Shown piece by piece: positions 13,150 to 37,524 of a stretch of DNA of 41,237 nt; the stretch's first letter is position 1, and every line of letters starts with the position of its first letter. The notes under the pieces are model-generated. The model made no database searches and was not told where the DNA came from. It saw only the letters and a list, made by a program, of their open reading frames with translations. The stretch comes from Terriglobia bacterium (GTDB lineage: Bacteria; Acidobacteriota; Terriglobia; 20CM-2-55-15). The DNA lies in the NCBI GenBank assembly GCA_036496425.1, contig DASXLG010000100.1, forward strand, positions 1 to 41,237, given 5' to 3'. The translations under genes were made by a program, and so were the position numbers.

Positions 13150-16100
13150 CTAAACTGAACCAGCCTGACCGTAGTACCAATCGTCGTCCCAGGAGGCGGC
13201 GGTGGACAGCAGCTCGTCGCGAGAGGCCCCCAGGGAGTCCCGCCTGATGCAGAAATCCGGCTTCTGGTACGCACGCGTGAGTTTTTCAAGCAAAGCCGGG
13301 CGTTGTGCGTCGCAGCGCTTGCGGGCCAATTCCAGCGCATTGATAAAATATCCGACCTGGGATCCTGTCAATCCGCTCAAGAGCCCGGGCTGCGTTGCAT
13401 TTTGTTTGAGAATTTCCAACAATTGCTTGAGGCGCGTGTTTTCAGCCAGTATCTGGCCACCTGAACTTACCTGGGCGAAACCGATTACCGCCAGCTCTGC
13501 GACGGAATCCATCGCTGTGATAAGACGAAGTGCAGCCTCCCCCAGGTTGGCGGGCGACTTCGGCTGAGAACCTTTGTCATCGGCGCCAAAGTGTCCTCGA
13601 CCGCCTGGTAACAGGAACGGCGCTATGCCGTCGTAAGCTTCTTCCAACTCGGCCCGGCACTCGGTGAACATTTTCTGGCTCAGGATCATCAGACCCAATT
13701 CGTCCTGCGGCTTTCCATTTTCGAGGAGAGTTGCTTTATCGCCGTCGCTTAACCTGCCAACCAGCGTTATTTGATCCGCGTGGAGATTCTTCACCGTCTC
13801 CGTCAGCCGATTCAAGTCCTCGGGGCTTAACCGCGTAGCAACGGAACCTGGGCGCTGCGCCAGCAGATTGTTGACGAACAGGTAAAGATCCGCCTCTGCC
13901 GCGGCATTGTTTTTGCCGGAAGGCAGCGCATCCACTATCTTGAGAAGGTCGCTGTAGCCCTTGCGCCAGCGGCAGGCGTCGCCGGAATTGCCCCACTCAC
14001 GAGAAAGAATCGAACCGACGATCATCTGCGGATCGACGTTCTTCAGCGCCTCGCGCGCTGCTGTTTTGCTGATCAGGTTGCCTTTGGTTTGCCGCGCTGA
14101 AGGATCATGCGTCCGGCGCTCGTTGGCCTGGAACATCAGGGCAGCCATACTGCAGCCCCGCAACTGGTTCATATCCGTCTGGGCCCGGCAATCTGCGGTT
14201 ATAGGCGGTTGATCCTCCGAGCCGCTCAGCAACGAATCGAAAGCTTCTTTGGAGAGACTCCACTCGAGAGTGCCAGACCTCGAAAGAAGCCTTTGTGCGA
14301 GCGGCTCCGTCATCGTTGCCCGGATATAAAACGGACGTATGGCTTGCGCGCTGTGCACAATGCCGGCGCCGCTATGCTCGACGGTCGGACCGAGGATTCC
14401 AAGATCTTCCGCAATCTTAAGGCTCGGGAAGTCGTGCAGCCGGACCACCAGCGTCTCTTCGATCTCGCCGATATCGAATACTTCCTTGAGCACGCGAGGC
14501 ACGATCAGAAGTTCCTGATAACAGGCCTTGTCCGGATCGCAGACATCGCGGAACTGCTTCAGCGTGTATAAGGAGAACGGTGTTTGATTTCCCAGAAGTT
14601 CAAGCGCGAGCGCTCTCGCAATCGAACATTCGTCCGGGTTTGCTGCCTGGGTTCGGTTCATTTCGCCGAGTTCCAGGCGCAGAGTTTCGGCCCACGAGCG
14701 GGCCGTATCATGGGAGTCGGCGTTCCCGAGTCCGAACGTCGGGTCGTGGTTGTCGATCTCGATGATTGTCTCGATCCTTGCCTTCTGCCCCGCTCCAAGG
14801 GCCGGCCAGACCTCTGCGTCCACTCGGAGAAAGGTTTGTTTGGAATCGATATCAGACTCGCCTTCCTTCAGCCACACGTTTTCCGGCCGCACAAAATTGG
14901 CAGTGAAGGCATTGATGCCTTGAATCTCGGAACGGGAAATCGCGGCAATGCAATCGTCCACGAAGGTGCCGGCGGGCAAAAGTCCAACCGCGATAACATC
15001 CCAGTCCTCGTTTTCGTCTTTGTTGCCTCCGGGTTTTAAGCGTTCCCACTTCACGGGAATCAAAAAAGACAATTCATATTTGGCCCAGTCACCGACGTTG
15101 TTTGTCTTTGAAAGGACATTCGCGAAACTCGTGGCGGTCAAGTAGACATAAGCAAACTCGCCGCCTATAGGGGCGGGTGGACGCGCCCACACGGACAGGC
15201 GTAACTGTTCTTTCTCACCCGTGTGCTCCCGCACGATGGGCGCCTGCAGCGGCTCGTTGACCAATTTGTCGACAAACGACTGGACCTTGTCCAGGTTCGC
15301 CAGCAGTGGAAGCACCCGGATCGTAGTTCCGGAATATTCGAACGGGCCCGTGATGGCATCCAGCGCCGTCGGCACCGTACTGTTGAAGAGCGGTGGCTCC
15401 AATTTCGAGGCCGGAATGCAGGGATTGAGCGGCGCGCCGGCGCCATCCCGCCAGATGCCGTCGTGTTTACGCCAGGCGAGGTTGATGCCCTGCTCATAAA
15501 TCAGGTTCATGCTCATCCAGAAGGGCAGCACGGGCTTCAACTCCGAAACGTCCGCGTCTTTGGCTCGCCATTGCCGGGAAACTTCCAGGCCCAGTACGCG
15601 CTCGATCGGCAGCGACGACTGTTGATACAAGTTGATCGTGTGACCACCGCTCAGATCGCCAAAGAAGGTCCGTTCCTCTCCAAGGAGACCGCCGCCGAGA
15701 AAACCCGTCATTCGCATCGGCCCGTTCGTCAGCGCCTGATAACAGACTCCGGACACATCATCGGCACGGCGAAACTGCTTGAGGTTGAGAGAGTTTTGAA
15801 TGAATCCTGATCCGGACGGCGCGAAGCCGGGCGCGAGGCGGGCCAGCATCTCCGGGATGGCCGACGGATCCGTCCCCGGATTCAGGGGGTGGATTCTCAT
15901 GGCTTGCGCCAGCCATATTGCGTCGCGGGCAAAGCCATTCATGGCCTCGGCGATATTGGATGCCATCTTCCAAGGCATGATCGGACTGCCCGGGTCGGTC
16001 GGCACACGGAAGTTCGACATCGGTGCATCGCGCTGGACTTCCAGGAAGACGCGTTTTTCCAGGCCCTTGTCGGCATACGCCTCCGGAAACACCTGCGTTT

Positions 16101-16596
16101 CGATGCGCGCGAGCGTGACGGATGAAAGCGCATTATGGGTCCAGGAACTCGGCGTAGCCGTGACCTTCGAGAGGATCTTGGTAAAACCGAAGACGGTACG
16201 GCCCATCGGCACCGAAAAATTGTCGTCCACAAAGATGTACGGCGTAATGACAGCCCAGTCGTGAAACACCCATTTGCCGTGGACGAGCTTGTACCACTCG
16301 ACCGGCACAAGAAACAGAACTTCGACCTGCGCAAACCATCCGGTTTGAGTTACCGGATCGGACAGCTGACCGTAATCGAGCACCATCAGATAAACATAAG
16401 GAACAAACGCGCGGAAGTTTCCCACTTCCAGCGGTACGAGGTTTAAATAGCCATTGCACAACTCCTGCAGAGCGTCGAGATCGGCTCGCAAAGGGAAGAC
16501 GCGTACCGACACTCCGTTGAATGCGAACGGAGGCTTCATCCGTAAGCGATTACTTGTGAACGGCGGCAGGTGCTTGCTGAACTCGCCAGGAGTCAT
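13150..16596 (-). CDS. Giant double acetoacetate-decarboxylase-like protein
   Basis: An 1148-residue protein with two copies of an approximately 400-residue unit followed by a helical tail (about 865-1148). Each unit starts with an ADC-like beta barrel (KPPFAFNGVSVRVFPLRA at 21; ITGPFEYSGTTIRVLPLLA at 415), then LKQFR...CYQ (272-287; 679-693) and RPF/LPFW blocks. In unit 1 the ADC hallmarks are kept: E92 before LFLVP, and GRTVFGFTK with K140 where the Schiff-base lysine of ADC is found. Unit 2 keeps E508 but has SRSEIQGINA instead, with no lysine, so it may be non-catalytic. There is no signal peptide. It is last in the operon, 10 nt after the prenyl synthase stop. A paralogue lies at 32579-35182. 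The chemistry is unknown; ADC relatives decarboxylate, condense or merely bind ketone-type substrates. Confidence 0.75.
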   Translation of the reverse strand: MTPGEFSKHLPPFTSNRLRMKPPFAFNGVSVRVFPLRADLDALQELCNGYLNLVPLEVGNFRAFVPYVYLMVLDYGQLSDPVTQTGWFAQVEVLFLVPVEWYKLVHGKWVFHDWAVITPYIFVDDNFSVPMGRTVFGFTKILSKVTATPSSWTHNALSSVTLARIETQVFPEAYADKGLEKRVFLEVQRDAPMSNFRVPTDPGSPIMPWKMASNIAEAMNGFARDAIWLAQAMRIHPLNPGTDPSAIPEMLARLAPGFAPSGSGFIQNSLNLKQFRRADDVSGVCYQALTNGPMRMTGFLGGGLLGEERTFFGDLSGGHTINLYQQSSLPIERVLGLEVSRQWRAKDADVSELKPVLPFWMSMNLIYEQGINLAWRKHDGIWRDGAGAPLNPCIPASKLEPPLFNSTVPTALDAITGPFEYSGTTIRVLPLLANLDKVQSFVDKLVNEPLQAPIVREHTGEKEQLRLSVWARPPAPIGGEFAYVYLTATSFANVLSKTNNVGDWAKYELSFLIPVKWERLKPGGNKDENEDWDVIAVGLLPAGTFVDDCIAAISRSEIQGINAFTANFVRPENVWLKEGESDIDSKQTFLRVDAEVWPALGAGQKARIETIIEIDNHDPTFGLGNADSHDTARSWAETLRLELGEMNRTQAANPDECSIARALALELLGNQTPFSLYTLKQFRDVCDPDKACYQELLIVPRVLKEVFDIGEIEETLVVRLHDFPSLKIAEDLGILGPTVEHSGAGIVHSAQAIRPFYIRATMTEPLAQRLLSRSGTLEWSLSKEAFDSLLSGSEDQPPITADCRAQTDMNQLRGCSMAALMFQANERRTHDPSARQTKGNLISKTAAREALKNVDPQMIVGSILSREWGNSGDACRWRKGYSDLLKIVDALPSGKNNAAAEADLYLFVNNLLAQRPGSVATRLSPEDLNRLTETVKNLHADQITLVGRLSDGDKATLLENGKPQDELGLMILSQKMFTECRAELEEAYDGIAPFLLPGGRGHFGADDKGSQPKSPANLGEAALRLITAMDSVAELAVIGFAQVSSGGQILAENTRLKQLLEILKQNATQPGLLSGLTGSQVGYFINALELARKRCDAQRPALLEKLTRAYQKPDFCIRRDSLGASRDELLSTAASWDDDWYYGQAGSV

Positions 16597-16606
16597 TCGG
16601 GCCTCG

Positions 16607-17647
16607 TCAATTTCGCTCGATTACCCACGCGGGGAGCGCCTGCAGAAAGCGCTTGTCCCGTGAATCGGGCAGGTTTCCATACACCTCGTTAAACTCGTAT
16701 TGAGCCGCTCCCGCGAGACCATGCGCCAACTGTCTGGCATAGTGCAGAGAACCATATGCTTTCATGCGTTCAAGCACCCACAAGACGTCTTCGTGGGTTC
16801 GGAGATCGCGCGGTTGTGCAAGGATCACATGCAGGCGATCGCGTTCAGGATCCGTGACTCTCGACAAAAGATGAATCAACATGAGCGTGCGCTTGCCTTC
16901 TCGAATGTCGCCGCCGAGTTCCTTGCCGTAGGCGGCCGGGTCGCCCTCGAGATTGAGCAGATCGTCCTGGATCTGAAACGCGGCGCCAAGAAAAAAGCCG
17001 AACCGGATACATCTGTCGGGGTCGATCCATCCCTTTCCTCCGATGAGAGTACCCATCCGGCTGGGGTGAATCGTGGTGAGCCAGCAGGTCTTCTTCAGGA
17101 CCATCAGGAGGTAATCCTGTTCAGCCACGTCGATAATGTTGTCACGTCTCCAGCCGAGTTCGAAAGCCTGACCTTCGGCAGACTCGCGCGCCATGCGCTC
17201 GGTGTCCTCCAGGATGCGGAGCGACAGCTCGGGTCCCAGCAGATGGCGGTTGTCGAGCAGGGGCCGCATTGCGAGCAGCGAAAGAGTGTCTCCCACGTTT
17301 ATCGCAATGGGAACGCCGGCGGATTGGTGCATCGCGGGCTTGCCGCGGCGCTGTTCGCTTTCATCTTCGATGTCGTCATGGATCAACATGGCATTGTGAA
17401 TCAACTCGATCGAGGCAGCCGTGCACAGCGCCAGCTCCGTCGGCGTACCAAAAGCTCGAGCCGTCGCTATGCAGAGACTCGGACGGAATGCACGGCCGCC
17501 GCGACGGGGGTAATCTGCGACCAGATCATAGAGATAACGGCGCGGCTCAACGGCCGGAAGATACTTGAAAAGAATTGTTCGTGTGGCGTCACCGTATTCC
17601 TTCAGGATCGATGACACCAAGCCGCCGCCAGGAGCAGATGCAGTCAT
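16607..17647 (-). CDS. Trans-polyprenyl diphosphate synthase
   Basis: A 346-residue, all-helical enzyme with both aspartate-rich motifs of trans-isoprenyl diphosphate synthases: DDIED at 91-95 (first motif) and DDLLN at 228-232 in FQIQDDLLNLEGD (second). It also has GGRAFRPSL near 50-58 and KKTCWLT near 185, all standard for the family. It condenses isopentenyl diphosphate with allylic diphosphates. The residues before the first motif are small or moderate (Ala at -5, Met at -4), which in the family is compatible with a C20 or longer product; this is inference. It lies 11 nt after the small-protein gene and 10 nt before the double-ADC gene, so it belongs to the same transcript and probably supplies the prenyl substrate for the cluster. 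Confidence 0.92.
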   Translation of the reverse strand: MTASAPGGGLVSSILKEYGDATRTILFKYLPAVEPRRYLYDLVADYPRRGGRAFRPSLCIATARAFGTPTELALCTAASIELIHNAMLIHDDIEDESEQRRGKPAMHQSAGVPIAINVGDTLSLLAMRPLLDNRHLLGPELSLRILEDTERMARESAEGQAFELGWRRDNIIDVAEQDYLLMVLKKTCWLTTIHPSRMGTLIGGKGWIDPDRCIRFGFFLGAAFQIQDDLLNLEGDPAAYGKELGGDIREGKRTLMLIHLLSRVTDPERDRLHVILAQPRDLRTHEDVLWVLERMKAYGSLHYARQLAHGLAGAAQYEFNEVYGNLPDSRDKRFLQALPAWVIERN

Positions 17648-17658
17648 CAGAAGCCCGC

Positions 17659-18387
17659 TCAGTCTCCGCGCGATTCGTGGATGACGACCGTCAGGTCCCC
17701 GACGGTACGGCGGTCCCCGATACTTCGAATGGACCCGTAGTAGCAGCCCGCAGGCTGGCCACTATCGATCTTCACAGTGACAACAACGCGGCCTGGCGTC
17801 CGGCTGATCGAAACAGCGTCTCCGGAAAGCGGCTCCGGGGCGCCTTGACGAAAAAGCGGATCGACCATAATTTCAGAATGATCCGCTCCCGGCCCCAGGT
17901 TCGCGATAACCTCGGCAGGCCGCGTCGATAACAATTGGATGGCGACCGCCGGTGTTGTCTGTGCCTGCGCGGAAGCCGCTCCAGCCGGATTCCAGGCTTG
18001 CTGCGGCCAGCCCCCTGGAACGAAAGAAGACCACGCGTCCATCCACGTGCGCATCGCCATCAGCCATTGCTCGGTGAAAGGCGGCATGGCGCCCCAGGGG
18101 TTTTGCCAGCCGTAATTGTTCGCTCGTTTGTCGTTCATCGGACCTCGCCTGTCTTGGTAACTATTATTGTTGTTTGCCGCCTGGTACCCACGGCGCAAAT
18201 ACTCCTCGATGACCTCGTATGCGGTTCGGACACCGTTTTCCAGCGCGCCATCGGCCGGCGTCCCGGATTTCGGCTGCTCGCGCGATTCTTCCGGCGCAGA
18301 CGGCCTCAAAAACGCCGAGAGCGGATTGCGAATGGGACCGCTCCGCACAGGAGGCACGCGTCTCTGCCTTGAATGCGGCTTACTCAT
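17659..18387 (-). CDS. Small unrecognised cluster protein, paralogue of the one at 35219-35938
   Basis: A 242-residue protein with no family I can name. The first part is basic and disordered. A helix ENGVRTAYEVIEEYLRRG follows, then Asn-rich and Trp-rich segments with an amphipathic helix (EQWLMAMRTWMDAWSSFVPGGW), and a C-terminal beta-rich domain (RPAEVIANLGPGAD to VGDLTVVI). The helix and the beta domain both align with the protein at 35219-35938. The start at 18387 has an AGGA-type site; the longer TTG frame to 18411 is unlikely. A second in-frame ATG at 18138 has a better site (GAGGT) and would make the protein begin like its paralogue. Phasin-like surface binding to a lipid or polymer granule is only a guess, based on the tryptophan-rich helix. 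Confidence 0.65.
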   Translation of the reverse strand: MSKPHSRQRRVPPVRSGPIRNPLSAFLRPSAPEESREQPKSGTPADGALENGVRTAYEVIEEYLRRGYQAANNNNSYQDRRGPMNDKRANNYGWQNPWGAMPPFTEQWLMAMRTWMDAWSSFVPGGWPQQAWNPAGAASAQAQTTPAVAIQLLSTRPAEVIANLGPGADHSEIMVDPLFRQGAPEPLSGDAVSISRTPGRVVVTVKIDSGQPAGCYYGSIRSIGDRRTVGDLTVVIHESRGD

Positions 18388-18457
18388 CCATCCTGCCTGT
18401 TGACGGGACAACCCAGCGTGTCATGTGTGGAGGGGCATAATACCACCGCCGGGTCAT

Positions 18458-21400
18458 TCACACACCACTCTTCAGCGCTTCGAGCATGATTTTTGCTTCA
18501 CGGAGATCGGGAGTGTCGAAGCCTTCCTGAAACGCATCGTAGGCCTTTGCCAATTTGTCACACTCCTCAGACGATGAGCCCACCTCCCGCCGGAGCCGGC
18601 ACAGACTCACAAGCGAACGTAACTCCAGCATTCGGGCCTCCTGGCTGCCGGCGCGGTCGATGGCCTGGCGGATTGAGGCCTCCGCTGCGGCCAGCAGGGC
18701 ACCCTTTTCAGGAACAGCCGCACTCGCTTGTGCAAAAAGAAATTCACCTTTCAGGCGGTAGAGCTCCGGCTCGAACAGTCCCTCACCATTCCCGGCAGCA
18801 AACTTCATGGCCGTGTCGAGTGTATTGAACGCATCATTCCACTGCCCCGCCTTCCACTCCGCACCGGCGAGGACGCAATAGAGCCAGTTCAATTGGATGC
18901 CGTTTCCGGCCGCACGATAACGGCGGATCGCGTCGCGTATCTGCACCATACCCTGAGCAGGTTCTCCCAACTCGGACAATGCCCAACCGCGGTATATCGT
19001 GATCATCGGCTCATAAAACCCAAGACGCTCCTCATGCACGACTCGGAGCGCCTCTTCAGCGCACGCGAACGTACGGTTCACATCGCCTTGCAGATAGTAG
19101 ATCGCGGTTCTGTCCGTCAAAGAAAAGCCAATGGAAGGCGGATGGCCGATTTCGCGCGCGAGTGCCACGCCACGTTCTCCGGCAGCTTTCGACCGTTCAG
19201 GAAAACCAAGCATCCAGAGCGCAGTTTTCTGATAGGACAGCAATCCGACACCCGAAGACAGGCCCATCATCCGCACGATGATTTGCTCGCGCTCCATATC
19301 GAGCATCGCCAGCCCCTCGTTCGCATACTTGTCGGCAAGCCGGAAATCGCCGTGGTAACAGTAGACGGCCGAATAATCCTGCAAAGCCATCGTCAGCAGG
19401 AGAGGGTTGCCGCTGGCTTGCGCCATCTCGAAAACCTGCGAGGCGAGCTCAATCGAGGAAGTGACGCGTCCGGCGACAAAGTGATAACCAAAGGTGCCGG
19501 TCGCGACCGTGAACCGGTGTGGCGTATCGCCAACGATATCCACCAGCTTTGCGGCTCGCCGGTACACCAGATCGAGATTGACGGATGCCCAGCTCTCAGC
19601 AGCGATCAATGCAGGAATCAAAAGGACCAGGAACTCCAGCTCCTGACGAGGGCGTTCGGCTTCAGGTAACTGGCCCACCAGCTCAAGCCCGCGCTTCAGA
19701 TGCGTGATGGCTTCGTGGTTCGCCGCACGGCTCACAGAGAGTTGGCCGGCCTGCAACCAGAATTTCACGGCATCCTGCGTTTGTCCTGCCGCGGTGAAAT
19801 GTTCCGCTACGAGTTCAGGGTGCTGTTCGGCGGTTTCAGAGAAGCTGCTCAGCAGCGCTTTGGCAATGCGCTCATGCAGAGCGCGGCGAGACTTTCTCAG
19901 CAACGACTGGTACGCGGCATCGCGGACGAGAGCGTGCTTGAATAAATAGATCTCTTCGAGGGCGTTACTGTCGCGATAAATCAGTTCCGCCCGGGCCAGC
20001 CGGTCGAGGCCACTCCTTAACTCAAGCTCATCGGTCTCGGCAACGCGGCTCAGCAATGCAAAGCTGAATTCCCGGCCGATGGTTGCCGCAAGTTGAGCAA
20101 GGCCTTTCGCCGGACCCAGCCGGTCCAGGCGGGCGCTGAGCGAAGCCTGCACGGTCGATGGAATCAAGCCCGGAGGCAGCGGCCCCGACAGCTCGAAGCG
20201 GTCGGCCCGCTCGACCAGCACGCCCAATTCGAGCACCGCCTTCGTGACTTCCTCCACAAACAGCGGGACGCCTTCGGTGCGCGCAACGATCTGACTCAAC
20301 ACTTCCTGGGGTATCGATTTGCCGTGCGCTACCCGTACCGCCATCGAAGTTGTATCTGCAGGAGCGAGGCGGCTGAGCGCCAGCGATGAAACCCGGCCGT
20401 TCACCGGCCATGGTGCTGCGAAATCGGGCCGGAACGTGAGGACGACCAGCAGCGGCGACGCCGCAAACTCTCCGATCACGGACGTCAGCCACTCCAGGGT
20501 TGTCGGGTCCACCCAGTGCAGATCTTCGATAATCCAAACGGCCGCCCCTTGCCGGGTCACGGCAAACAACCACGCCGACAGTGTTTGCAGGGTCCGTTCG
20601 CGTTTCTTCTGCGGCGAATAGTTGAGCAGCAGGTCTGCTTCGCTGCCCGGGATCCTCAGCAGTTCCGCCATCAGCGCAAACGCCTCGGCTGAGAGGATGC
20701 CGCGTTGCCCAAGGTAGGCCTCCAACGTCGCGCGTTTGCCGGCGTAGGTTGTCTCGCGGGTAAACCCGAGAGCCCGCTCGATCGAACCGATGATGGGAAA
20801 CAAAGGAGTATTTTGTGCGTATGGAGTGCAGAAGCATTCCAGAACGGTTGCGGACTGGCGCTGGACCTCCTCGCGAAGCGAATCGACAATTCTGGACTTG
20901 CCGATACCGGCTTCACCCTGCACAAGTACGGCATGCCCACCCGAAGTCGAAACGGTGTTCCAGCGGCTTTTGATTGTAGTGAATTCTTCGTCACGCCCCG
21001 TAAGCGGGGTCAAGCCGCTGCGCCGTTCGACGTCGAGACGGCTTGCGGCGCCGGTCTCTCTCAGGACCCGGTGCAACGTGACCGTTTCGGAGAGTCCCCT
21101 GATGTCATGTGCACCGCGGTGGATAAAATCAAAATATCCCCGGACGATACGATATGTATCGTCGCTGACCAGCACCGTGCCCGGCTCTGCGATGTTCTGA
21201 ATTCGCGCTGCCAGATTCGGCGTTTTGCCGACCGCAAGCTGCTCGCGCCGGTCGGCGCCTCCAACTTCACCGACCACGACGGGGCCGGTATGGATTCCCT
21301 GGCGGATATTGAGTGAGATGCCGCGCTCGCTACGCAGCCGGCCGGCAACCGGCACCAGATCCTGGATGATCTCCAATGCAGCTCGAACAGCGCGGCGGGC

Positions 21401-21709
21401 ATCGTCTTCGTGCGCGGCGGGATAGCCGAAATAGGCAAGCACTCCATCACCCAGGTACTGAGCGATGTATCCATCGTGCCTCCGGATCGCAACCTCGCAG
21501 ATCGATTGGTACATACTCGTCACTTCGCGCAGATCTTCCGGTTCGAGAGACTCTGCAAGGGAGGTCGATCCGACGAGGTCGCAAAAGAGAACGGTCAACT
21601 GTCGAAGTTCGGCTTCGGTCTCTGCAGAAGCCGGACGCAACGGTGTCCCGCAATGCCCGCAGAACTTTGTCCCACCGGGATTTTCTCCGCCGCAATTTCC
21701 ACAGCGCAT
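18458..21709 (-). CDS. Class III nucleotide cyclase fused to AAA ATPase and TPR domains
   Basis: A 1083-residue cytoplasmic protein. It starts with a zinc ribbon (CGNCG...CGHCG, 3-21). A class III cyclase domain follows (about 36-215), with metal-binding D44 (FCDLVGST) and D88 (YLGDGVLAYFG) and the transition-state pair N165/R169. Then comes a STAND-type ATPase with Walker A GEAGIGKS (265-272) and a WIIEDLHWVD Walker B region, and a long TPR-like helical tail. The N-terminal part should make cAMP or cGMP; the rest senses a ligand or partner. ATG at 21709 is chosen over 21739 because GGAGAG lies 7 nt upstream. It sits inside the lipid cluster between the glycine-rich ADC gene and the small-protein gene, so it may control that pathway. 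Confidence 0.9.
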   Translation of the reverse strand: MRCGNCGGENPGGTKFCGHCGTPLRPASAETEAELRQLTVLFCDLVGSTSLAESLEPEDLREVTSMYQSICEVAIRRHDGYIAQYLGDGVLAYFGYPAAHEDDARRAVRAALEIIQDLVPVAGRLRSERGISLNIRQGIHTGPVVVGEVGGADRREQLAVGKTPNLAARIQNIAEPGTVLVSDDTYRIVRGYFDFIHRGAHDIRGLSETVTLHRVLRETGAASRLDVERRSGLTPLTGRDEEFTTIKSRWNTVSTSGGHAVLVQGEAGIGKSRIVDSLREEVQRQSATVLECFCTPYAQNTPLFPIIGSIERALGFTRETTYAGKRATLEAYLGQRGILSAEAFALMAELLRIPGSEADLLLNYSPQKKRERTLQTLSAWLFAVTRQGAAVWIIEDLHWVDPTTLEWLTSVIGEFAASPLLVVLTFRPDFAAPWPVNGRVSSLALSRLAPADTTSMAVRVAHGKSIPQEVLSQIVARTEGVPLFVEEVTKAVLELGVLVERADRFELSGPLPPGLIPSTVQASLSARLDRLGPAKGLAQLAATIGREFSFALLSRVAETDELELRSGLDRLARAELIYRDSNALEEIYLFKHALVRDAAYQSLLRKSRRALHERIAKALLSSFSETAEQHPELVAEHFTAAGQTQDAVKFWLQAGQLSVSRAANHEAITHLKRGLELVGQLPEAERPRQELEFLVLLIPALIAAESWASVNLDLVYRRAAKLVDIVGDTPHRFTVATGTFGYHFVAGRVTSSIELASQVFEMAQASGNPLLLTMALQDYSAVYCYHGDFRLADKYANEGLAMLDMEREQIIVRMMGLSSGVGLLSYQKTALWMLGFPERSKAAGERGVALAREIGHPPSIGFSLTDRTAIYYLQGDVNRTFACAEEALRVVHEERLGFYEPMITIYRGWALSELGEPAQGMVQIRDAIRRYRAAGNGIQLNWLYCVLAGAEWKAGQWNDAFNTLDTAMKFAAGNGEGLFEPELYRLKGEFLFAQASAAVPEKGALLAAAEASIRQAIDRAGSQEARMLELRSLVSLCRLRREVGSSSEECDKLAKAYDAFQEGFDTPDLREAKIMLEALKSGV

Positions 21710-21745
21710 ACCGACTCTCCGTCTGCCCAAAGCGGACACACGACG

Positions 21746-22792
21746 TTATTCGGCCAAGGCACGGGGATAACTAAGTGTTACGGGCAGTCCCGTGATAATG
21801 AACGCACCCCAGGGTTCGGTATCTCCTATTGGGCTGATATCCGAAACTGCACCGCTCAATCCCGGGATGAACGCATCACCTGATTCCAGCCGTACCGATG
21901 CCGGCGTCAATCGCATCGTCTGCTCCTCAAACGCGCGATCGAGGAACGATACCACGAGTCGATCTGCATACCGCAGGCCAAGCAAAGGATGAGACTGAGC
22001 AGTTATGACATGCGTTGCGGCGGAATACACGGCGGAGGCCGGCATTGGCGGAGCTGCGCGGCTGATGATCCGGAGCGGCGGGCCCGTCGAGCCCGTCATC
22101 ACTTCAAGCGCGCCGTCTTCCGTCCAGGTACCGGAAGCGCGCGATTTCCTGTATCCCCACCCGACAAGCCATTCGCCGAGCAGTGATGCCGCACTATCGG
22201 TGTATGCGGCGAGGACCAGGGTAAAATCGCGGGCTCGCCCAGCTTGCTCATAACAGCAAGGAACCGTCACGATGATCTCATTGTAGGTCCCGACCATGCG
22301 CGAATTATTCTCGCTGGTCTTGCGGCCCATCGCAGCCGCCCAATGTGCGCCGCGAACAGCGCCCTCGGCCGCCATCAGGCCTGCTCCGGCAACGGACCCG
22401 GCCACTGCGCCAGCTGCGGCGCCCCACCACCAGCCTAACGGGCCAAGACCGATTCCCAGGGTCCCGCCGGCGGCCGCTCCCGCGGCGCCGCCAAGTCCTG
22501 CTCCCAACACCGCACCTGCGCTGCCGCCGACTCCGAGTCCGGCGGAACTGCCTGCGATCTCCCATAAGTCATGTGCGTCGAGTCCGCCCACCTGAATCAA
22601 ACCGTTTTGAACGCGCCAGATTTCCAGAATGATGGGATGGCGGCCTTGCGGGACCTGCGGAAGGCGGGGCAACGAGAGCGGAGGGCTCTGTGGCAGGCAC
22701 TGCTGAAGCTGATGAGAATCGACCAGCAGAGGACAGACCAGCGAATCCAGCCGGGCAGTACTGTAAGTCGGAGGCCGCGGAAGCGCTGTCAC
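21746..22792 (-). CDS. ADC-like protein with a glycine-rich hydrophobic insert
   Basis: A 348-residue protein. The C-terminal part has ADC-family features: E172 in GTYNEIIVTVP, a YTDS strand and GEWLVGWGYRK with K216 in the position of the ADC Schiff-base lysine (the usual PKK reads RKS). Between the first strands and this core lies a 65-residue stretch (about 80-145) made almost only of Gly, Ala, Leu and Val with GxxxG repeats (GLGVGGSAGAVLGAGLGG and onward), like a glycine-zipper membrane hairpin. Such an insert is unusual and suggests membrane or lipid-surface attachment. The start is GTG at 22792, overlapping the stop of the upstream reductase-like gene by 4 nt (GTGA), so the two are translationally coupled. 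Substrate is unknown. Confidence 0.7.
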   Translation of the reverse strand: MTALPRPPTYSTARLDSLVCPLLVDSHQLQQCLPQSPPLSLPRLPQVPQGRHPIILEIWRVQNGLIQVGGLDAHDLWEIAGSSAGLGVGGSAGAVLGAGLGGAAGAAAGGTLGIGLGPLGWWWGAAAGAVAGSVAGAGLMAAEGAVRGAHWAAAMGRKTSENNSRMVGTYNEIIVTVPCCYEQAGRARDFTLVLAAYTDSAASLLGEWLVGWGYRKSRASGTWTEDGALEVMTGSTGPPLRIISRAAPPMPASAVYSAATHVITAQSHPLLGLRYADRLVVSFLDRAFEEQTMRLTPASVRLESGDAFIPGLSGAVSDISPIGDTEPWGAFIITGLPVTLSYPRALAE

Positions 22793-23838
22793 AGGTCTTC
22801 GCGCATCGCGCCGTCGAATGACAGTGCGAAATCCGGTCCGTAGATCCTGGAGGGCGTGTGAAAACCCGGTTTCAATTCACCAGCCAAGCATCTTTCGGCA
22901 ATCGCGACTGCGCTCAGCGCGGTAAACCAATACACGTCACCGGTCTGCAACCGCGATCTCGCCGATCCTCCGCAGCCGTCGAACGCTTCGACGACCAGCG
23001 CGCCCCAGCCCTGATTTCTCTCAGGAGGCGAAGGATCAGGGGCAAGCCAATCCAATTGCGCCTTAATCAGACCTTGGATTGCCGGCGTGGAAATCAGCCA
23101 ACCCCAATACTGATTGGCCGTGATCGCAGACCATATCGGGAGGGTTGCGCACAGGTAAGTCTCGACGTCCGGAATGCCTGTACTGAAGTAAGCCGAGGAG
23201 ACGTCGGCGAGACTTACCGCGAGACTCATCTGGGGGCCCTGACCATAATCGAACTGGTGTACGAGAGAACCCGCAGCGACGCGCGCCAGAATGCCCCGGC
23301 GTCGAACGAGTACTCCCTGGCCATTCATCCCGATGCAGGTTTTCAACGAACCGCGCGAGGATGGCTGAGATTTATGGAATCCCAGCTTCAACGCAGTCGC
23401 GCCGGGCAGGCGGCGCGCCACGTGCGCCGCCAGGCAATCGGACGCAACGACTTCAAAGCCGACCGCCGGCATCAACATCACGCCGCGGCGCGCGGCTGTA
23501 TCGTCGTGTGCCGCCGCCTGTTCGATGACTTCAGGTTCTCCTGTAATGTCGAGATAGTGCGTCCCTGTGGAAAGACAAGCATCTATCAGAGCCGATGCCG
23601 TGGTCGAAAAAGGACCTGCAGCGTTGAGCAGGACAGGAGCGGAGGCGGTCATCGCACGAAGACTAGCCGGCTCGTCCACCCGTGCGATCTTCCATTCGAG
23701 ATCGTTCGACGACGCCATGAATTCCACAGCCTGCCGATCCCGGCCGGCGATCAAGGGCCTCAATCCCCGGGCGAGCGCCCTTCGCACGATCAATTGACCG
23801 GAATACCCGGTGGCGCCGTAAATCGCAAGAGTGGACAT
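22789..23838 (-). CDS. Saccharopine-dehydrogenase/trans-acting-enoyl-reductase-like protein
   Basis: A 349-residue NAD(P)-binding protein. The Rossmann start is canonical (LAIYGATGYSGQLIVRRAL, then IAGRD), followed by VLLNAAGPFSTTASALIDACLSTGTHYLDITGE, the characteristic block of the saccharopine-dehydrogenase-like/TER group. It is somewhat shorter than mycobacterial trans-acting enoyl reductases, which work on polyketide-type lipids. Residues after about 170 are less conserved. It starts 12 nt after the receptor gene and overlaps the next gene by 4 nt, so it is a core cluster member. Likely role: reduction of a C=C or C=N bond in a lipid or related intermediate, using NADPH (inferred from the family). 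Confidence 0.85.
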   Translation of the reverse strand: MSTLAIYGATGYSGQLIVRRALARGLRPLIAGRDRQAVEFMASSNDLEWKIARVDEPASLRAMTASAPVLLNAAGPFSTTASALIDACLSTGTHYLDITGEPEVIEQAAAHDDTAARRGVMLMPAVGFEVVASDCLAAHVARRLPGATALKLGFHKSQPSSRGSLKTCIGMNGQGVLVRRRGILARVAAGSLVHQFDYGQGPQMSLAVSLADVSSAYFSTGIPDVETYLCATLPIWSAITANQYWGWLISTPAIQGLIKAQLDWLAPDPSPPERNQGWGALVVEAFDGCGGSARSRLQTGDVYWFTALSAVAIAERCLAGELKPGFHTPSRIYGPDFALSFDGAMREDL

Positions 23839-23850
23839 CTTCTGCCCGGC

Positions 23851-26800
23851 TCAGAATCCCAACCGCAAAGCGAAGCTGATGTACCGCGCAGGATAAGCGG
23901 ACGCAAACGCAAGCGGTTGGCTGAGCTGTGAGATGGAAGTTGGAGCAAAGCCTGTGGCAGTGTATGGACCGTTCAGCAGATTTCCACCATTCGGAAGAGT
24001 GAAATTGGGATCAGCCGGAACGATGTTGTTGACCGCAGCAAAGTTCGTCCGGTTGAGCAGATTCTGAAATTGCGCGATGAGTTCCAACTTCCGTCCCCTT
24101 TCTCCATTGAAGTACAGGGATTTCGCAACTCTCAAGTCAACAGTCTTGTAGGAATCGCCTCGCCCCTCATTCCGGGGTTCATTCCATGGCCGCGCTTCGC
24201 TGGTATGTCCGATCGTCCCGTTGCCCGACAAGCCTCCCAGACCGGGTGCCAGAAGAGTGAATGGAACTCCGGACCTCAGGACAACGATCGGCGAAATAGA
24301 AATGCCGGCCAGAACCTTGGATTGAGAGGGAGTCATGTAGACCGCGTTTGCGACGAAATTGTGCGTCACGTTAAAATCCGAAACAGACCAGTCTCTCCTC
24401 AACTGGTCGGGACGAAACGGGACGCTCAGATTACTGAAATCGCTTGTATTGTCTTCTGCGCGGCTGAGCGTGTAATTGGCGTTGAACTGCAAACCATGGC
24501 TGAAGCGTTTGCTCAATGAAGACGTGAGTCCGTGGTACACGCCGCTGCCGACAGGCGACCAGACGTCGTTGACGAAAACCAGCGAATTCGGCACACCGGC
24601 TGTTGTTCCAGGCTGGGGACCATAGCATGGCCCAACGAACGGATCGATCACCGCCGTGAATTGCGCAGGGTTCACGAAGTTACACGGAGCTTCCTGGTAA
24701 TTGCCGGCGGTTACCTGCTGGATGTGAACGCTTCGATAGTAGCTGTATCCGAGCTCGATCGACAGGTTCGGAGCGATTTCGCGCGCGATGCTTGTGCTCG
24801 CCTGGACGGTGTATTGCGGTTTGAAACCCGGATCCAATGTTGAAAACACGCTTCCAAATGCCGTCGGACCCGGAGGGTTTATCGCCCAGCCTATGGACGC
24901 GAGGTCGGCGGGACTGAGTGCGGGATTCGGATCAGGCCCTGTCGCTTTTGACCTGGCGACCGCCCAGGCAGCGAAGATGGAAGGAAACGGCGGCGACGGG
25001 AGGCTGGCCGATAATGCGCCCTGGTTGATATATTTCCCGCTGGTGCCAAGGGTATTCACGTAGAAGGGCACCATGAAGAGAACCGGAGCAACGAACAGCC
25101 CCCCACCCGCGCGGACGACGGTTTTTCCTGTGCCCGCCGGATCCCATGCAAGGCCTGCACGCGGCGAAACATAGACGCTGTGCGGCACCGGCGCAGGCGC
25201 GGCGTCGTAGTCCAGCCGCGCTCCGTAGTTAAATGTCAGCTTTGGAGAAATTTTCCACGTGTCCTGCGCGTAAACGCCGAGATGGTGGTCCCAGCCTTTC
25301 CATTGAGTATTCGAAGAGGGACTGGCCTGAATCAAAGAGAGCGGTGTGCCGGCAAGGAAGGACTGCACCGCCGTCAAATTCGTCGATGATGGCCCGCCCG
25401 CTGGATAACCCTGGCTCAGGTTGAAAGCGGCGAGATTTGCCTGCACCGCCTGAGGCAAAAGCGCAATCAGGGGGATAGCACCATCCGCGAAACTCCACTG
25501 GCCGCCAAACCAGACGTTTTCGGAAACGTTGTAATGGTCGGGCTGATATGAGCCGCCAAATTTAAAGCTGTGGGCCTTGCGCAGCAAAACAGCATTGTCG
25601 TCGAATTGAAACCGCTTCACGTTCGCACCGTACGGCAATGAAAACGGATTCCCCAGAACAATCGAATTCGCGGTCAGAAGGTCGATTTCCGCCCGCTCCG
25701 GATAGGGAGTGCCGGCTGTGGCAAGATCTTGCGGCACGGCTTGCACGCGAAGAACGTTGACGAACTTCGGACTGAAAGAGTGGGTCCAGGCGGACGTCAC
25801 CGTATAGTCCGTTCGCAGATCGAACGTGGAGGTCGGCGGCTGCGGAACCACGCTATCCGTCTCGTGCATCAATGAAAAACGCGCCATGATGCTGTCACGG
25901 ACAGACGGCTGATAATCGACCCGGGAAACCCAATTGTTGTAGCGGCCTCGCGGCGTGTTGAATCCGGGCGTACCGCGAACCGCAGCAAGTGTCGAGATAA
26001 TTCCGTCAAATGTCCCCTGGTTTGGAAGAACAAGAGCGCTCAGGATCGGGTCTGCGAGCGGCGCCCCTAACACGGGTGAGGCGAGAAGAGTAGCGCCCAA
26101 GGGCGCTGCCGCGGTGCCGGAATTCGCCAACTGGGTCAAATAACAAAGCTGGCTGACCTGTGCGGGCTGCCCGGGACACTTGCCGCCACTGTAACCATTG
26201 GTTTGAGCGCTTACAGACTGAAACTCCGCTGTGCCTGAGTAATTCTGCGAAGTCGCCGAATCGAGCTTCTGATTTTCGTAGGCGGTGAAAAAGAACAGCT
26301 TGTCGTGCCTGATGGGTCCGCCAAGCGTGAAGCCGGAAATAGCGCTTTGTTCGAAAAGGTTCGAACCGGGATTGATCAGCCGGTTGAAATAGTTAACGGA
26401 ATCGGTATTTCTGTTGTGGAAGTAGGAGTAAACGCTGCCGTGCAGTGTGTTTGTCCCGCTCCGCGTCACGACATTGATGGCCGTGCCCACCGTATTTCCG
26501 AATTCCGCCGCGAAAGAACTTCGGTTTACCTGAAACTCCTGCACTGAATCCAAGGGCACGTTGCGCACTCGCGGCGCACCCGAGCCGTAATCGTTCTCGC
26601 CGCCATCAATCGTAATCAGGTTGTTACGACCGTTGCTGCCGCCTATGGAGAATCCGGAAGCGAGATATCCGGTACCGACGCTGGGATCCTGTATTGAAGG
26701 CGTATTCGAACTTGCCACGCCCGGAACGGTATAAATAAGGTCCGTGAAGCGGCGGTCGATATTTGGAAGATTCTCGACTTGAAGCTGGTTGACGGTGTTT

Positions 26801-27207
26801 GCCTGCTGTGTTTGCTCAACTTCGATCAGAGGCGCCTGATCCCTAACCTCGACCTCCTGATCGAGCACGCCAAGGACAAGATGGACGTTATATGAAACAG
26901 GTTCGCCCACCGTGAGCACAACGTTATCCGCAACCGCTCTGCTGAAACCCGCGGCTTGTACGGTGACGCGATAGGTGCCCGGAGCGAGCGCCGGCACCTG
27001 ATAATAGCCGGCCTCTTCCGACAGCGCGGTCCTGACCAGACCCGTAGACGTATTGGTCACGGTAACGGCCGCGCCCGGAACCACTGCGCCATTCGGATCG
27101 AGGATGCTTCCTTTCAGTACGGCGCTGTCATAACTCACCTGGGCATAGCTCAGGACCGAAACAAACAGGACGATGCCGGAAAGCATCGCGGCCCTATGGA
27201 TGGTCAT
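23851..27207 (-). CDS. TonB-dependent receptor with carboxypeptidase-regulatory N-domain
   Basis: An 1118-residue outer-membrane protein of the acidobacterial Oar-like type. A signal peptide (cut near SYAQ) is followed by a carboxypeptidase-regulatory-like Ig fold (KGSILDPNGAVVPGAAVTV to GTYRVTVQAAGF). A plug domain (VENLPNIDRRFTDLIYTVPGV, GGSNGRNNLITIDGG, FAAEFGNTVGTAINVVTRSGTN) and a long beta-barrel follow, ending in ...YISFALRLGF with the terminal Phe required for barrel assembly. ATG at 27207 is chosen over the open frame to 27321 because it yields the signal peptide and has AGGAG 10 nt upstream. It overlaps the flavoprotein gene by 14 nt. It should take up or export a large ligand; its place inside the lipid cluster suggests the cluster substrate or product crosses the outer membrane here. 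Confidence 0.93.
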   Translation of the reverse strand: MTIHRAAMLSGIVLFVSVLSYAQVSYDSAVLKGSILDPNGAVVPGAAVTVTNTSTGLVRTALSEEAGYYQVPALAPGTYRVTVQAAGFSRAVADNVVLTVGEPVSYNVHLVLGVLDQEVEVRDQAPLIEVEQTQQANTVNQLQVENLPNIDRRFTDLIYTVPGVASSNTPSIQDPSVGTGYLASGFSIGGSNGRNNLITIDGGENDYGSGAPRVRNVPLDSVQEFQVNRSSFAAEFGNTVGTAINVVTRSGTNTLHGSVYSYFHNRNTDSVNYFNRLINPGSNLFEQSAISGFTLGGPIRHDKLFFFTAYENQKLDSATSQNYSGTAEFQSVSAQTNGYSGGKCPGQPAQVSQLCYLTQLANSGTAAAPLGATLLASPVLGAPLADPILSALVLPNQGTFDGIISTLAAVRGTPGFNTPRGRYNNWVSRVDYQPSVRDSIMARFSLMHETDSVVPQPPTSTFDLRTDYTVTSAWTHSFSPKFVNVLRVQAVPQDLATAGTPYPERAEIDLLTANSIVLGNPFSLPYGANVKRFQFDDNAVLLRKAHSFKFGGSYQPDHYNVSENVWFGGQWSFADGAIPLIALLPQAVQANLAAFNLSQGYPAGGPSSTNLTAVQSFLAGTPLSLIQASPSSNTQWKGWDHHLGVYAQDTWKISPKLTFNYGARLDYDAAPAPVPHSVYVSPRAGLAWDPAGTGKTVVRAGGGLFVAPVLFMVPFYVNTLGTSGKYINQGALSASLPSPPFPSIFAAWAVARSKATGPDPNPALSPADLASIGWAINPPGPTAFGSVFSTLDPGFKPQYTVQASTSIAREIAPNLSIELGYSYYRSVHIQQVTAGNYQEAPCNFVNPAQFTAVIDPFVGPCYGPQPGTTAGVPNSLVFVNDVWSPVGSGVYHGLTSSLSKRFSHGLQFNANYTLSRAEDNTSDFSNLSVPFRPDQLRRDWSVSDFNVTHNFVANAVYMTPSQSKVLAGISISPIVVLRSGVPFTLLAPGLGGLSGNGTIGHTSEARPWNEPRNEGRGDSYKTVDLRVAKSLYFNGERGRKLELIAQFQNLLNRTNFAAVNNIVPADPNFTLPNGGNLLNGPYTATGFAPTSISQLSQPLAFASAYPARYISFALRLGF

Positions 27208-29344
27208 AACCGATGATCTCCTTGAGCAATGGCTTTTGAGAAATCGCGTGTGCTGCCAGAAGACCGGAAATGACGGCGGATTCGATACAGCCGGAGTCGA
27301 GTCCCGTCGCCGTCCAATCACCGGCTATCGTCAGATTGTCAAAGGCCATATCCAGGGGAGACACGCGGTAAACAATGCTGCCGGGCAGCGATTGTACATA
27401 ACGATCCGTCGGATTGACGTTCGCTTTCCAGAATTGCGAATCGAAGCGGCATTGGGATGCTTCTGCGCTCGATTGATCTTCGCCTGCCAGTAAATCCCAG
27501 CGAAACGCTCCATCTCCGCCGGCTGCCCGGGGCCACAGCGCACGGACATCGTTGTTCAGGAAACGAATGGCATTGTTGCGGACGGTTTCGTCTTGCTGCA
27601 GGCAAAAGTCCTGGGTGACGCTGGAGGAATCCGGAGCCAGGTCGGGCAGCACGCTGCAGAAGTATGCAATGGACTTGACCGCGATGCGCCAGCTTTCCTC
27701 CGGGATGAGATGGCTCATGTCCGCCCAGGTATCGAATGGATGGACAAAGCCCGACACATTCGTTTCGCTGCCTTTCCACCCAAGCTCGCTCGAATCCTTC
27801 TGCATCCAGAGCTGAAACGCCTGCGTCGGCACGGTCTTGACTTCGCGAACCATATCGCGCCAGCGTGGCTCGCGCTCGATGAGTTCAGCAGCCACGCCGG
27901 GCAGAGCCCCAATACCCAAGCCGAGGATAACGAAATCGAAATCGCGTGCAACCGACAACCTCTTGTTGCCCGCACGGCCCTTTTCCCAGATCGCCTCAAA
28001 GGAGCGGCCGTCGCGGGCAAGCGAACGGCCGCCGACCAGTTGAGCGTAATCGGGTTGAATGGGCCAGCTTGGGAGGTTGTGAATATCCACCAGGGGTTGA
28101 TATTCACCGCCGCCCTTGATACGGGCCTGCACATCAAAATCGAGTGTCTTCACGAAAGGAGTCTCGCCGGGTTCGCTGGGACCAAGTCCTATATGCGTCA
28201 GCCGATGGAAGAACTCAAAGCGCACACCTCTTTGCTTCAGCACCTGGTAGAGCGGCGCGAAAACGACATCGCCCATACCCGCACTCATGCGCCAGAAGAG
28301 CGAACCGCGGTATGTGAAGAACATCCGCATTGCTCCGCGCAAGGCTACGCCCGCCGCCAGGCGCGGACGATGGACATCGCCGTCTTCGTATGCGAAAACC
28401 AGGTCGTAAATCCCCCGCATGAATCCCGAATCAAGTGACGGCTCGGACGCGCCGTTCATCCGGAGCCACTCTCGCCAGTCGTAATCGTTGATCGCGTCGA
28501 AACCGCGCGGATCGACAGCCAGTCCACAACGGATCGAACCGCGAACGATAGCGAGAATGAGATCGATGACTTCCCAGACCCGGCGCAGTTCGGGACTCGC
28601 CTCGACCATGGAAGCAAGCTGGCGCCGGGCCGCGACCGCCAACTGTTCGATGATCTGCATCGGCGCGGAGACGGCATCTCCAAAGAAGCGCGGGAAAAGA
28701 GTATCGATCGCTTCGCGCAGGAAATCGCTTGCCTCAATGAGAGCGGCGGCCGTCGCGAGCTGGGAATACCGCAGCATTGTCGCAACGCCAGGTGTGGTTC
28801 CGCCGCCGCTGTTGGGGCGTGGTCCGGAGCCGGTATCTTCCGTTCCCTGTTCGGAAGATTCCATCGCGGCTGCCGACCGCAGCAACTCACCGATCAGCAT
28901 CACGGATTGGCGCAGGTAAGCAGCGACAGTAAACGGGTCACCCGTCGCCGGGTCACCAGGCTCACCCTGACCCGGTGGAAAATGCGCCAGCCAGAACGCC
29001 CATCCATCCCCCGTCCGGTTTGCAACGCCAACGTTGGGGGCCGGCTTGAAGGCATCCCGCCAATCCGCAAAACGGCAATTCGGAAACGCCTGCCGCCGCT
29101 CGGCGTAGCATTCGCGCATCAACCGGAAGGCATTCTCGTAGAAGCCCATCCACAAATGAAGACCGTGTTCCTCCACGCGATCCGCGACGCCGCGCCCGGA
29201 AGCGCCTTTTCCGCCAAGACGCCATCCCATTTGATAAACCGTGACCTCATATTGACCGTCATGTTCGGGACGTGTGAGTTCGAAGGCCGCCGTCAGAGCG
29301 GCACAACCGCCGCCAATCACGGCTACACGAATGGGTGTTTTCAT
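27194..29344 (-). CDS. CrtI/phytoene-desaturase-like FAD-dependent oxidoreductase
   Basis: A 716-residue flavoprotein, first gene of the operon. It has an N-terminal FAD-binding Rossmann motif (VAVIGGGCAALTAAFEL, 8-23), then YQMGWRLGGKGASG and EEHGLHLWMGFYENAFRLM, the FAD-contact blocks of the phytoene-desaturase/amine-oxidase group. The C-terminal signature NLTIAGDWTATGLDSGCIESAVISGLLAA closes the FAD site. It is longer than CrtI-type enzymes (about 500) because of helical inserts in the middle, one of them low-complexity (near residue 165). Known relatives desaturate or oxidise isoprenoids. With the prenyl synthase in the same operon, an isoprenoid substrate is plausible but unproven. No good Shine-Dalgarno sequence precedes ATG 29344; TACAAT lies nine bases upstream. 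Confidence 0.85.
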   Translation of the reverse strand: MKTPIRVAVIGGGCAALTAAFELTRPEHDGQYEVTVYQMGWRLGGKGASGRGVADRVEEHGLHLWMGFYENAFRLMRECYAERRQAFPNCRFADWRDAFKPAPNVGVANRTGDGWAFWLAHFPPGQGEPGDPATGDPFTVAAYLRQSVMLIGELLRSAAAMESSEQGTEDTGSGPRPNSGGGTTPGVATMLRYSQLATAAALIEASDFLREAIDTLFPRFFGDAVSAPMQIIEQLAVAARRQLASMVEASPELRRVWEVIDLILAIVRGSIRCGLAVDPRGFDAINDYDWREWLRMNGASEPSLDSGFMRGIYDLVFAYEDGDVHRPRLAAGVALRGAMRMFFTYRGSLFWRMSAGMGDVVFAPLYQVLKQRGVRFEFFHRLTHIGLGPSEPGETPFVKTLDFDVQARIKGGGEYQPLVDIHNLPSWPIQPDYAQLVGGRSLARDGRSFEAIWEKGRAGNKRLSVARDFDFVILGLGIGALPGVAAELIEREPRWRDMVREVKTVPTQAFQLWMQKDSSELGWKGSETNVSGFVHPFDTWADMSHLIPEESWRIAVKSIAYFCSVLPDLAPDSSSVTQDFCLQQDETVRNNAIRFLNNDVRALWPRAAGGDGAFRWDLLAGEDQSSAEASQCRFDSQFWKANVNPTDRYVQSLPGSIVYRVSPLDMAFDNLTIAGDWTATGLDSGCIESAVISGLLAAHAISQKPLLKEIIGYDHP

Positions 29345-35182: not shown

Positions 35183-35218
35183 GATATCGCTTCGAATTCA
35201 GGAAGGCAGGTCACAACC

Positions 35219-36953: not shown

Positions 36954-37524
36954 GCCCAAGTTCCCGAAGCAGCCAGGCCTTCGCGAAATTCCAGTGACGG
37001 CTGACGGTAACCGGCGAGACGCCCAGGGCTTCGGCCGTTTCTTCCACGCTGAAACCTCCGAAGTAGCGCAACTCGACCACGCGCGCCAGCTGCGGATCGG
37101 CGGCTGCCAGGCGCTAGAGCGCCAGGTCGACCTCCAACAACAAGCCCAGACGATCATCGACCGCCGCATACGTGATCTCCGCTTCCTCGAACGCGACGGC
37201 GTGTGCGCCTCCGCCACGCTTGGCATAGCAACGCGAACGGGCGTAATCGACCAGAATCCTTCGCATCAACTGAGCGGAAACGCCGAAGAAATGGCCGCGG
37301 TTCTGCCATTGCACGTTTTTCCAGTCCATCAGCCGGAGGTAGGCTTCGTTTACCAGCGCCGTTGCCTGCAAGGTGTGACCGGGACGCTCGCGCCCCATAT
37401 ATCCGCCGGCCAATCGATACAATTCCCGGTAAACAACAGGAGTCAGCTGCTCCAGCGCGCTTTCGTCACCCTCGCTCCACGCCCGCAGCAGCTTCGTCAG
37501 TTCGCCGGACGATATCTCTGCCAT
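36901..37524 (-). pseudogene. ECF sigma factor interrupted by an in-frame amber codon
   Basis: The first 136 codons encode sigma region 2 and the linker (LTPVVYRELYRLAGGYM, ALVNEAYLRLMDW, MRRILVDYARSR), of the ECF type common in acidobacteria. A TAG at 37114-37116 stops translation inside ...VDLAL-stop-RLAAADPQLARVVELRYFGG. The same frame then continues intact through all of region 4 (FSVEETAEALGVSPVTVSRHWNFAKAWLLREL) to TAG at 36901. The stop sits where relatives often have a Glu codon, so one GAG-to-TAG change would explain it. A -10-like TACAGT lies six bases before ATG 37524. Either the gene is dead, the codon is read through, or it is a sequencing error. It overlaps the downstream kinase by 53 nt. 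Confidence 0.85.

Follow-up and report, generated by a model that had tools for sequence, protein, structure and literature searches.

Which pathway, if any, is encoded by eight tightly packed genes with such mixed annotation? The genes occupy positions 13150-29344 of the window, which is the whole 41,237-nucleotide contig DASXLG010000100.1 (C100) of a 6.16-Mb, 407-contig Terriglobia bacterium assembly that is 95% complete. All eight lie on the minus strand and encode, in order, a flavoprotein (H), an outer-membrane receptor (G), an NAD(P) oxidoreductase (F), a single-domain acetoacetate decarboxylase (ADC)-like protein (E), a cyclase-ATPase regulator (D), a small protein of a new family (C), a prenyl diphosphate synthase (B) and a double-ADC protein (A). 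A first-pass annotation of the sequence had read them as one operon for the synthesis or remodelling of a polyprenyl-derived or other lipid, with its own transport and control, and knew no described pathway with this gene set. A literature search, in which subscription journals were poorly covered, found none either. We conclude, with a probability of about 0.6, that the operon represents a widespread metabolic cluster, undescribed so far, with a core of H, C, B and an ADC-fold protein, to which D and either F or a second reductase (X10) are added.

Organization of the operon

The open reading frames (ORFs) in the order H-G-F-E-D-C-B-A were confirmed as a tight operon. The packing was present as first described, and correction of start codons places the junctions at overlaps of 4-14 nt and gaps of 6-70 nt. 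H and G overlap by 14 nt (H stop 27194, G ATG 27207), with the sequence AAGGAG upstream of G. G and F are separated by 12 nt, F and E overlap by 4 nt, and the remaining gaps are 6 nt (E/D), 70 nt (D/C; C ATG 18387), 11 nt (C/B) and 10 nt (B/A). Scans for Sigma-70 sites and terminators found sites no more often than in shuffled sequence, the site upstream of H included, and we therefore make no promoter claim.

A closed gene set recurs in seven phyla

An alignment of 13 H-family flavoproteins, scanned against 84,980 species genomes, returned hundreds of relatives. The same genome scan with both double-ADC proteins of the window found no relative, the peptide patterns being too specific. The 80 best flavoprotein loci were retained together with flanks of up to 10 kb each, and 64 of these are core loci. 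They are distributed among the Pseudomonadota (34), Myxococcota (16), Acidobacteriota (4), Cyanobacteriota (3), Gemmatimonadota (2), Binatota (2) and Planctomycetota (1), with 2 from no named phylum. B and C are each present in 61 core loci, about 48-50 loci have an ADC gene, 41 have D and 52 have F or X10; truncated contigs account for several of the absences. H, C and B occur together in 60 of the 64 loci; in 56 they follow one another as H-C-B on a single strand, and in 36 an ADC gene comes directly next. The first-pass proposal of a single unit, which depended on the genes being kept together in other genomes, is thus upheld for H, C, B, ADC, F and D; G is the exception. Chance association was dismissed because the set recurs across seven phyla.

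No family is shared by more than 3 of 77 flanking genes, and we therefore regard the conserved set as closed. A cytochrome P450, a terpene cyclase and a transporter were sought as recurrent flanking genes and were not found. Other recurring ORF groups (2, 3, 8, 9, 11 and 13) were judged to be shadow ORFs. Component c12, considered as a second ADC family, is largely antisense to X10 and was dropped as a core member for that reason; a real extra ADC seems to be present only in L044, L045 and L048.

Since the core loci had been chosen by H, a search with C only was run as an independent test. The C-family profile gave five strong matches in 284 Myxococcota genomes, four of them in genomes new to the analysis. 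In all four, C has H as its immediate upstream neighbor and B as its immediate downstream one (the B of G690 is a partial match). Weak C matches in the Myxococcota (E > 1e-5) are without H or B neighbors. C is confined to the cluster in 22 of 22 carrier genomes, with coordinates that fit it; where a genome has two sites, they are a single gene in halves or an additional copy within that cluster. Distances among the proteins are correlated (H-B 0.47, H-F 0.90, H-A 0.44, B-A 0.55) and none of 500 Mantel permutations was as high, although this test does not correct for shared species history. On the H tree the window groups with two Acidobacteriaceae and then with Gemmatimonadota and Myxococcota. 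Phyla are mixed on this tree, and horizontal transfer is likely.

The recurrence of a closed set of about six genes over seven phyla points to a real pathway without an assigned product, and it appears that a widespread small-molecule or lipid pathway has been overlooked so far. Carriers include cyanobacteria and cultured myxobacteria, sphingomonads, roseobacters and Variovorax. Many of them are in culture, which makes a search for the product by gene deletion and metabolomics readily practicable.

Flavoprotein H defines the cluster

H (27194-29344; about 716 residues) is a flavoprotein of the FAD amine-oxidase fold (Pfam NAD_binding_8/Amino_oxidase) with the signature GWRLGGKGASGR...EEHGLH. 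Its top NCBIfam model is HpnE (TIGR03467; 68.3 bits, 8e-19), followed by carotene desaturases, and the best PDB match of the H profile is a phytoene desaturase. The HpnE score is far below the cutoff of 283 bits, so H falls outside that family. The earlier label was a CrtI-like flavoprotein; the closest NCBIfam model is HpnE and not CrtI. H shares the amine-oxidase superfamily and an isoprenoid context with HpnE and the CrtI/CrtISO carotene oxidoreductases; it differs from them in its length, a large insertion and its own signature. Its cluster also differs from theirs in having ADC partners and no squalene or phytoene synthase. The squalene-forming enzymes HpnC and HpnD do not recur in the 64 core loci or their flanks.

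H homologs on plasmids of Azospirillum, Catenovulum, Qingshengfaniella and Rufibacter adjoin ADC-family genes and/or cyclase/AAA regulators. Plasmid p3 of Azospirillum brasilense (L005, 14953-21642) carries two divergent flavoproteins, one overlapped by an ADC gene by 4 nt and the second followed directly by an outer-membrane protein transport (FadL-type) gene. Two other genomes of the window's phylum each have two H-like flavoprotein genes in tandem (L037, 10946-15303; L039, 11970-18285), and the L037 pair adjoins a large AAA/TPR gene.

Two ADC domains, one conserved lysine

A (13150-16596) has three parts: domain 1 (residues ~16-382), domain 2 (~401-780) and a helical C-terminal extension (781-1148). 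It scores below the Pfam ADC cutoff by sequence, and the ADC fold is supported by the predicted structure. In an AlphaFold2 (AF2) model compared with VIA-align, domain 1 matched the ADC 3c8w (Z 18.2, root-mean-square deviation 2.9, 213 residues aligned) and domain 2 matched the ADC-like aldolase-dehydratases 6eej and 5upb and MppR (Z 15-16). Every significant Foldseek match of the model was an ADC. Both domains are thus predicted to fold as acetoacetate decarboxylases. The helical tail was also considered as a vinculin-type bundle, and this was rejected because its Z of ~10 lies within the generic range for helical bundles.

The Schiff-base lysine in the motif GRxVYGWPK (Lys140 of A; Lys147 of K, a second double-ADC protein of the window) is present in 29 of 29 first domains and in 0 of 29 second domains. 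A hidden Markov model alignment to 4zbo, weak at E 0.02, placed this lysine on its PK motif, and the second lysine of the classical ADC motif (PKK) is substituted in the double-ADC family. An invariant lysine in the first domain and its absence from the second divide the protein clearly into a probably catalytic half and a non-catalytic one. The single ADCs beside flavoproteins in the wider family mostly retain the lysine.

A shares its fold (Z 15-18) and the position of the domain 1 lysine with the ADC superfamily, including the aldolase-dehydratases Swit_4259 and the Streptomyces bingchenggensis enzyme as well as MppR. It differs from these proteins in having two domains per chain, identities of 11-17%, a second domain that lacks the lysine, the helical extension, and a flavoprotein and prenyl synthase as companions. 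A search for A in 100 relatives found it only in G000, and its distribution within its own phylum is patchy. In the sphingomonad loci L081, L089, L091, L092 and L094 the double ADC is replaced by two separate single-domain ADC genes, followed by a conserved Baeyer-Villiger-type monooxygenase and beta-lactamase/esterase-like genes.

E (21746-22792) is a single-domain ADC-like protein with a very weak Pfam ADC match. A long, membrane-like glycine-zipper stretch is inserted inside its ADC-type domain. E keeps a lysine in the sequence GYRK, and its sole clear ortholog (L054; E 4e-50), which adjoins F, has GYQK at the aligned position.

The flavoprotein and the ADC protein also occur as single polypeptides. 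ADC-H fusions are present in L113 (7838-11107) and in L117, L121 and L123 (9002-12187), an H-ADC fusion is present in L122 (9974-13165), and a Qingshengfaniella plasmid flavoprotein consists of H plus a C-terminal ADC-like extension. Fusion in both orders is strong evidence that the two proteins act jointly. No described chemistry was found for this pairing. The ADC-flavoprotein fusions of both domain orders are ~1060-1090 residues long and have no prenyl synthase nearby.

A dedicated prenyl synthase and a new protein family

B (16607-17647) is a polyprenyl diphosphate synthase of the geranylgeranyl diphosphate (GGPP) synthase type. It matches PF00348 with 184.5 bits against a cutoff of 27 (2.6e-54), and its closest PDB structure is 1wmw, the GGPP synthase of Thermus thermophilus (2e-56). 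The first aspartate-rich motif (FARM) of B is DDIED, with a small residue at position -5. Among 54 family members the first motif is DDxxD in nearly all, the second is DDxxN in most, and the residue five before the first motif is A, S or G in 53. A small residue at this position marks products of C20 or longer among prenyl synthases, and B would accordingly make a prenyl diphosphate of at least that length. Two other prenyl synthases of the genome are only 29-35% identical to B, which is therefore not the housekeeping enzyme. B has full-length homology to bacterial GGPP synthases such as 1wmw, including both aspartate-rich motif regions, and differs from GGPP synthases at large in forming a separate, cluster-bound subfamily (44-79% internal identity). 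The polyprenyl-type precursor proposed at first is supported by this dedicated long-chain enzyme. B was also considered as a Family 2 encapsulin polyprenyl-transferase cargo protein (NF041169), and this was rejected on a score of 160 bits against a cutoff of 450 and with no shell gene seen.

C (17659-18387) represents a new family that matched nothing in Pfam or NCBIfam and has no database match of any kind. It consists of a basic N-terminal RxxRPxPxRxxPxR motif, two helices and a C-terminal immunoglobulin (Ig)-like beta-sandwich, and its beta domain is modeled by AF2 at a predicted local distance difference test score (pLDDT) of about 92-97. Foldseek and VIA structure searches with C gave nothing above Z 4.9 and recovered the Ig-like arrangement only.

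Alternating reductases, a regulator and a local receptor

F (22789-23838) is an NAD(P) oxidoreductase of the Sacchrp_dh_NADP type (PF03435). Across the 64 core loci, 31 have only F, 20 have only X10, which is an unrelated short-chain dehydrogenase/reductase (SDR)/epimerase, 1 has both and 12, mostly on short contigs, have neither. This alternation has a Fisher p of 4e-7, with kinship ignored, and at least 7 switches occur on the H tree; the window carries F and its nearest relatives carry X10. Because two unrelated NAD(P)-dependent reductases replace each other across loci, they seem to perform the same step. The earlier description of F as enoyl-reductase-like is weak: F is a generic Sacchrp_dh-type reductase, and an SDR stands in its place in about one-third of loci. 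It shares the Sacchrp_dh_NADP Rossmann domain with trans-acting enoyl reductases and saccharopine-dehydrogenase-like proteins, but it has no NCBIfam match and is not accompanied by a polyketide synthase.

D (18458-21739) joins a zinc-ribbon, a class III nucleotide cyclase, an AAA/STAND ATPase and TPR repeats (Guanylate_cyc, AAA_16, TPR). The metal aspartates and the Asn/Arg of the cyclase are present by inspection, and the genome encodes no other full-length protein of the D type. Its place in the operon and its homologs in the core loci agree with the suggestion that the cluster has its own control. The order of cyclase, STAND ATPase and TPR is the same as in TOMM_kin_cyc-like regulators (TIGR03903). 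Assignment of D to this family was rejected, since it scores 627 bits against the required 705.75, matches only from profile position 278 and has no Pkinase domain; it also belongs to this cluster and not to a TOMM peptide cluster.

G (23851-27207) is a TonB-dependent, Oar-like outer-membrane receptor with OMP_b-brl_4 (PF25183), CarboxypepD_reg (PF13620) and Plug domains. A G-like gene lies near H in only 3 loci, all acidobacterial (L041, L045 and L107), and Oar-like receptors are frequent in Acidobacteria. The idea that the cluster has its own transport is not borne out, this receptor being absent from nearly all loci. Despite its place in the operon and its good ribosome-binding site, G is not part of the conserved set and is therefore probably a local acidobacterial passenger.

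Proposed pathway and competing explanations

The best reading of the protein families and conserved residues is a dedicated, regulated pathway in which an isoprenoid diphosphate of C20 or longer would be modified by flavin redox, lysine-carbonyl and NAD(P)H chemistry. B would supply this diphosphate, and H would use its flavin for a redox reaction of the chain or of something derived from it. The invariant lysine of the N-terminal ADC domain could form a Schiff base with a carbonyl intermediate, which the domain would then decarboxylate or join or cleave in aldol fashion; the second domain may be structural or bind substrate. The fusions suggest that H and the ADC protein share one intermediate or form one complex. 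F or X10 would reduce the product. C, always beside H and B, may organize the enzymes or dock them to the membrane or a lipid, and D may gate expression or activity. We hold more tentatively, at somewhat below even odds, that the cluster produces an undescribed class of isoprenoid-derived metabolite or lipid in at least seven phyla, through the dedicated prenyl synthase, a flavoprotein-ADC Schiff-base step on a polyprenyl intermediate and C as a scaffold family.

Several observations weigh against this interpretation. The genes of the window are rearranged and depart from the common order H-C-B-A. No ADC gene lies in the examined DNA of about 14 loci, most of which are F-type, so the ADC step may occur elsewhere or be dispensable. 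The D-H distance correlation is weaker than those of H with B, F or A (rho 0.28, with 4 of 500 permutations as high). In L100-L123 and on plasmids the flavoprotein-ADC pair exists without any prenyl synthase, so an isoprenoid need not be the general substrate of H. Taken with the loci that have no visible ADC, these pairs suggest a broader flavoprotein-ADC chemistry, of which the isoprenoid part may form a single branch.

A catabolic role would explain why a TonB/Oar receptor sits in the operon with a 14-nt overlap: G would take up exogenous terpenoid or prenyl compounds for breakdown, and the ADC would release CO2 or a ketone. True decarboxylases do occur in the ADC family, and the sphingomonad loci adjoin Baeyer-Villiger-type and esterase-like genes. 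Formation of a prenyl diphosphate is, however, an anabolic step, and B is present in nearly all core loci; acyl-CoA enzymes do not recur in the flanks, and G is not conserved. We consider breakdown unlikely, and a branch of known carotenoid, squalene or hopanoid synthesis slightly more so. In the latter H would be an HpnE/CrtI-type enzyme and B would supply farnesyl diphosphate (FPP) or GGPP, as the best profile and structure matches of H allow. The low HpnE score of H argues against such a branch, as does the finding that neither a squalene/phytoene synthase (HpnC/D, CrtB) nor a cyclase recurs in the 64 loci. To our knowledge the carotenoid, squalene and hopanoid pathways contain neither ADC proteins nor C.

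The ADC proteins and C might instead not be enzymes of a pathway but serve in binding or storage at a lipid body or membrane domain, which would hold a prenyl lipid made by H and B. A second ADC domain that lacks the lysine and the helical plus beta-sandwich structure of C, with no obvious active site, would fit. The prenyl-lipid-rich cyanoglobules of Anabaena contain an ADC-family protein and a protein annotated as an FAD-dependent oxidoreductase (PMC12923008), a likeness by annotation only that makes prenyl-lipid droplets a possible cellular context of the cluster. The invariance of the first-domain lysine and the flavoprotein-ADC fusions, which suggest sequential catalysis, speak for enzymes, and we give storage lower odds than either breakdown or a known branch. 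Mixed annotation and the local occurrence of G, and possibly E, are what one would expect of mere neighbors with unrelated functions on this contig. Such an explanation is very improbable for the set kept in distant genomes (H, C, B, ADC, F and D), given the order conserved over seven phyla, the separate retrieval with C, the correlation of distances and the fusions; it survives only for G. A dedicated pathway from a long isoprenoid diphosphate is preferred over these alternatives.

A second partial set upstream

A second partial set, L-K-J (31668-35938), was missed in the first-pass annotation. It lies on the same strand, 2-7 kb upstream of the main operon. L (35219-35938), the first gene of the set, encodes a second C-family protein (BLASTP 2e-6 to C; C-family profile 88 bits). 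K (32579-35182) is the second double-ADC protein; it keeps Lys147 in domain 1, is 36% identical to A over 884 residues and scores 30.5 bits against Pfam ADC, just over the cutoff. J (31668-32600), an uncharacterized protein, overlaps K by 22 nt. It weakly matches the tail of A (E 7e-4, 1e-3) and is possibly the detached C-terminal extension of K. The set may provide a variant or an extra step in this strain. Between L-K-J and the main operon lies a divergent Ser/Thr kinase gene (29433-31700). The first ~100 residues of a further kinase ORF (36042-37226) seem not to be in frame with the upstream gene that they overlap, which is sigma-factor-like when read in a different frame, and the true start is probably near the internal MESKVEQERL.

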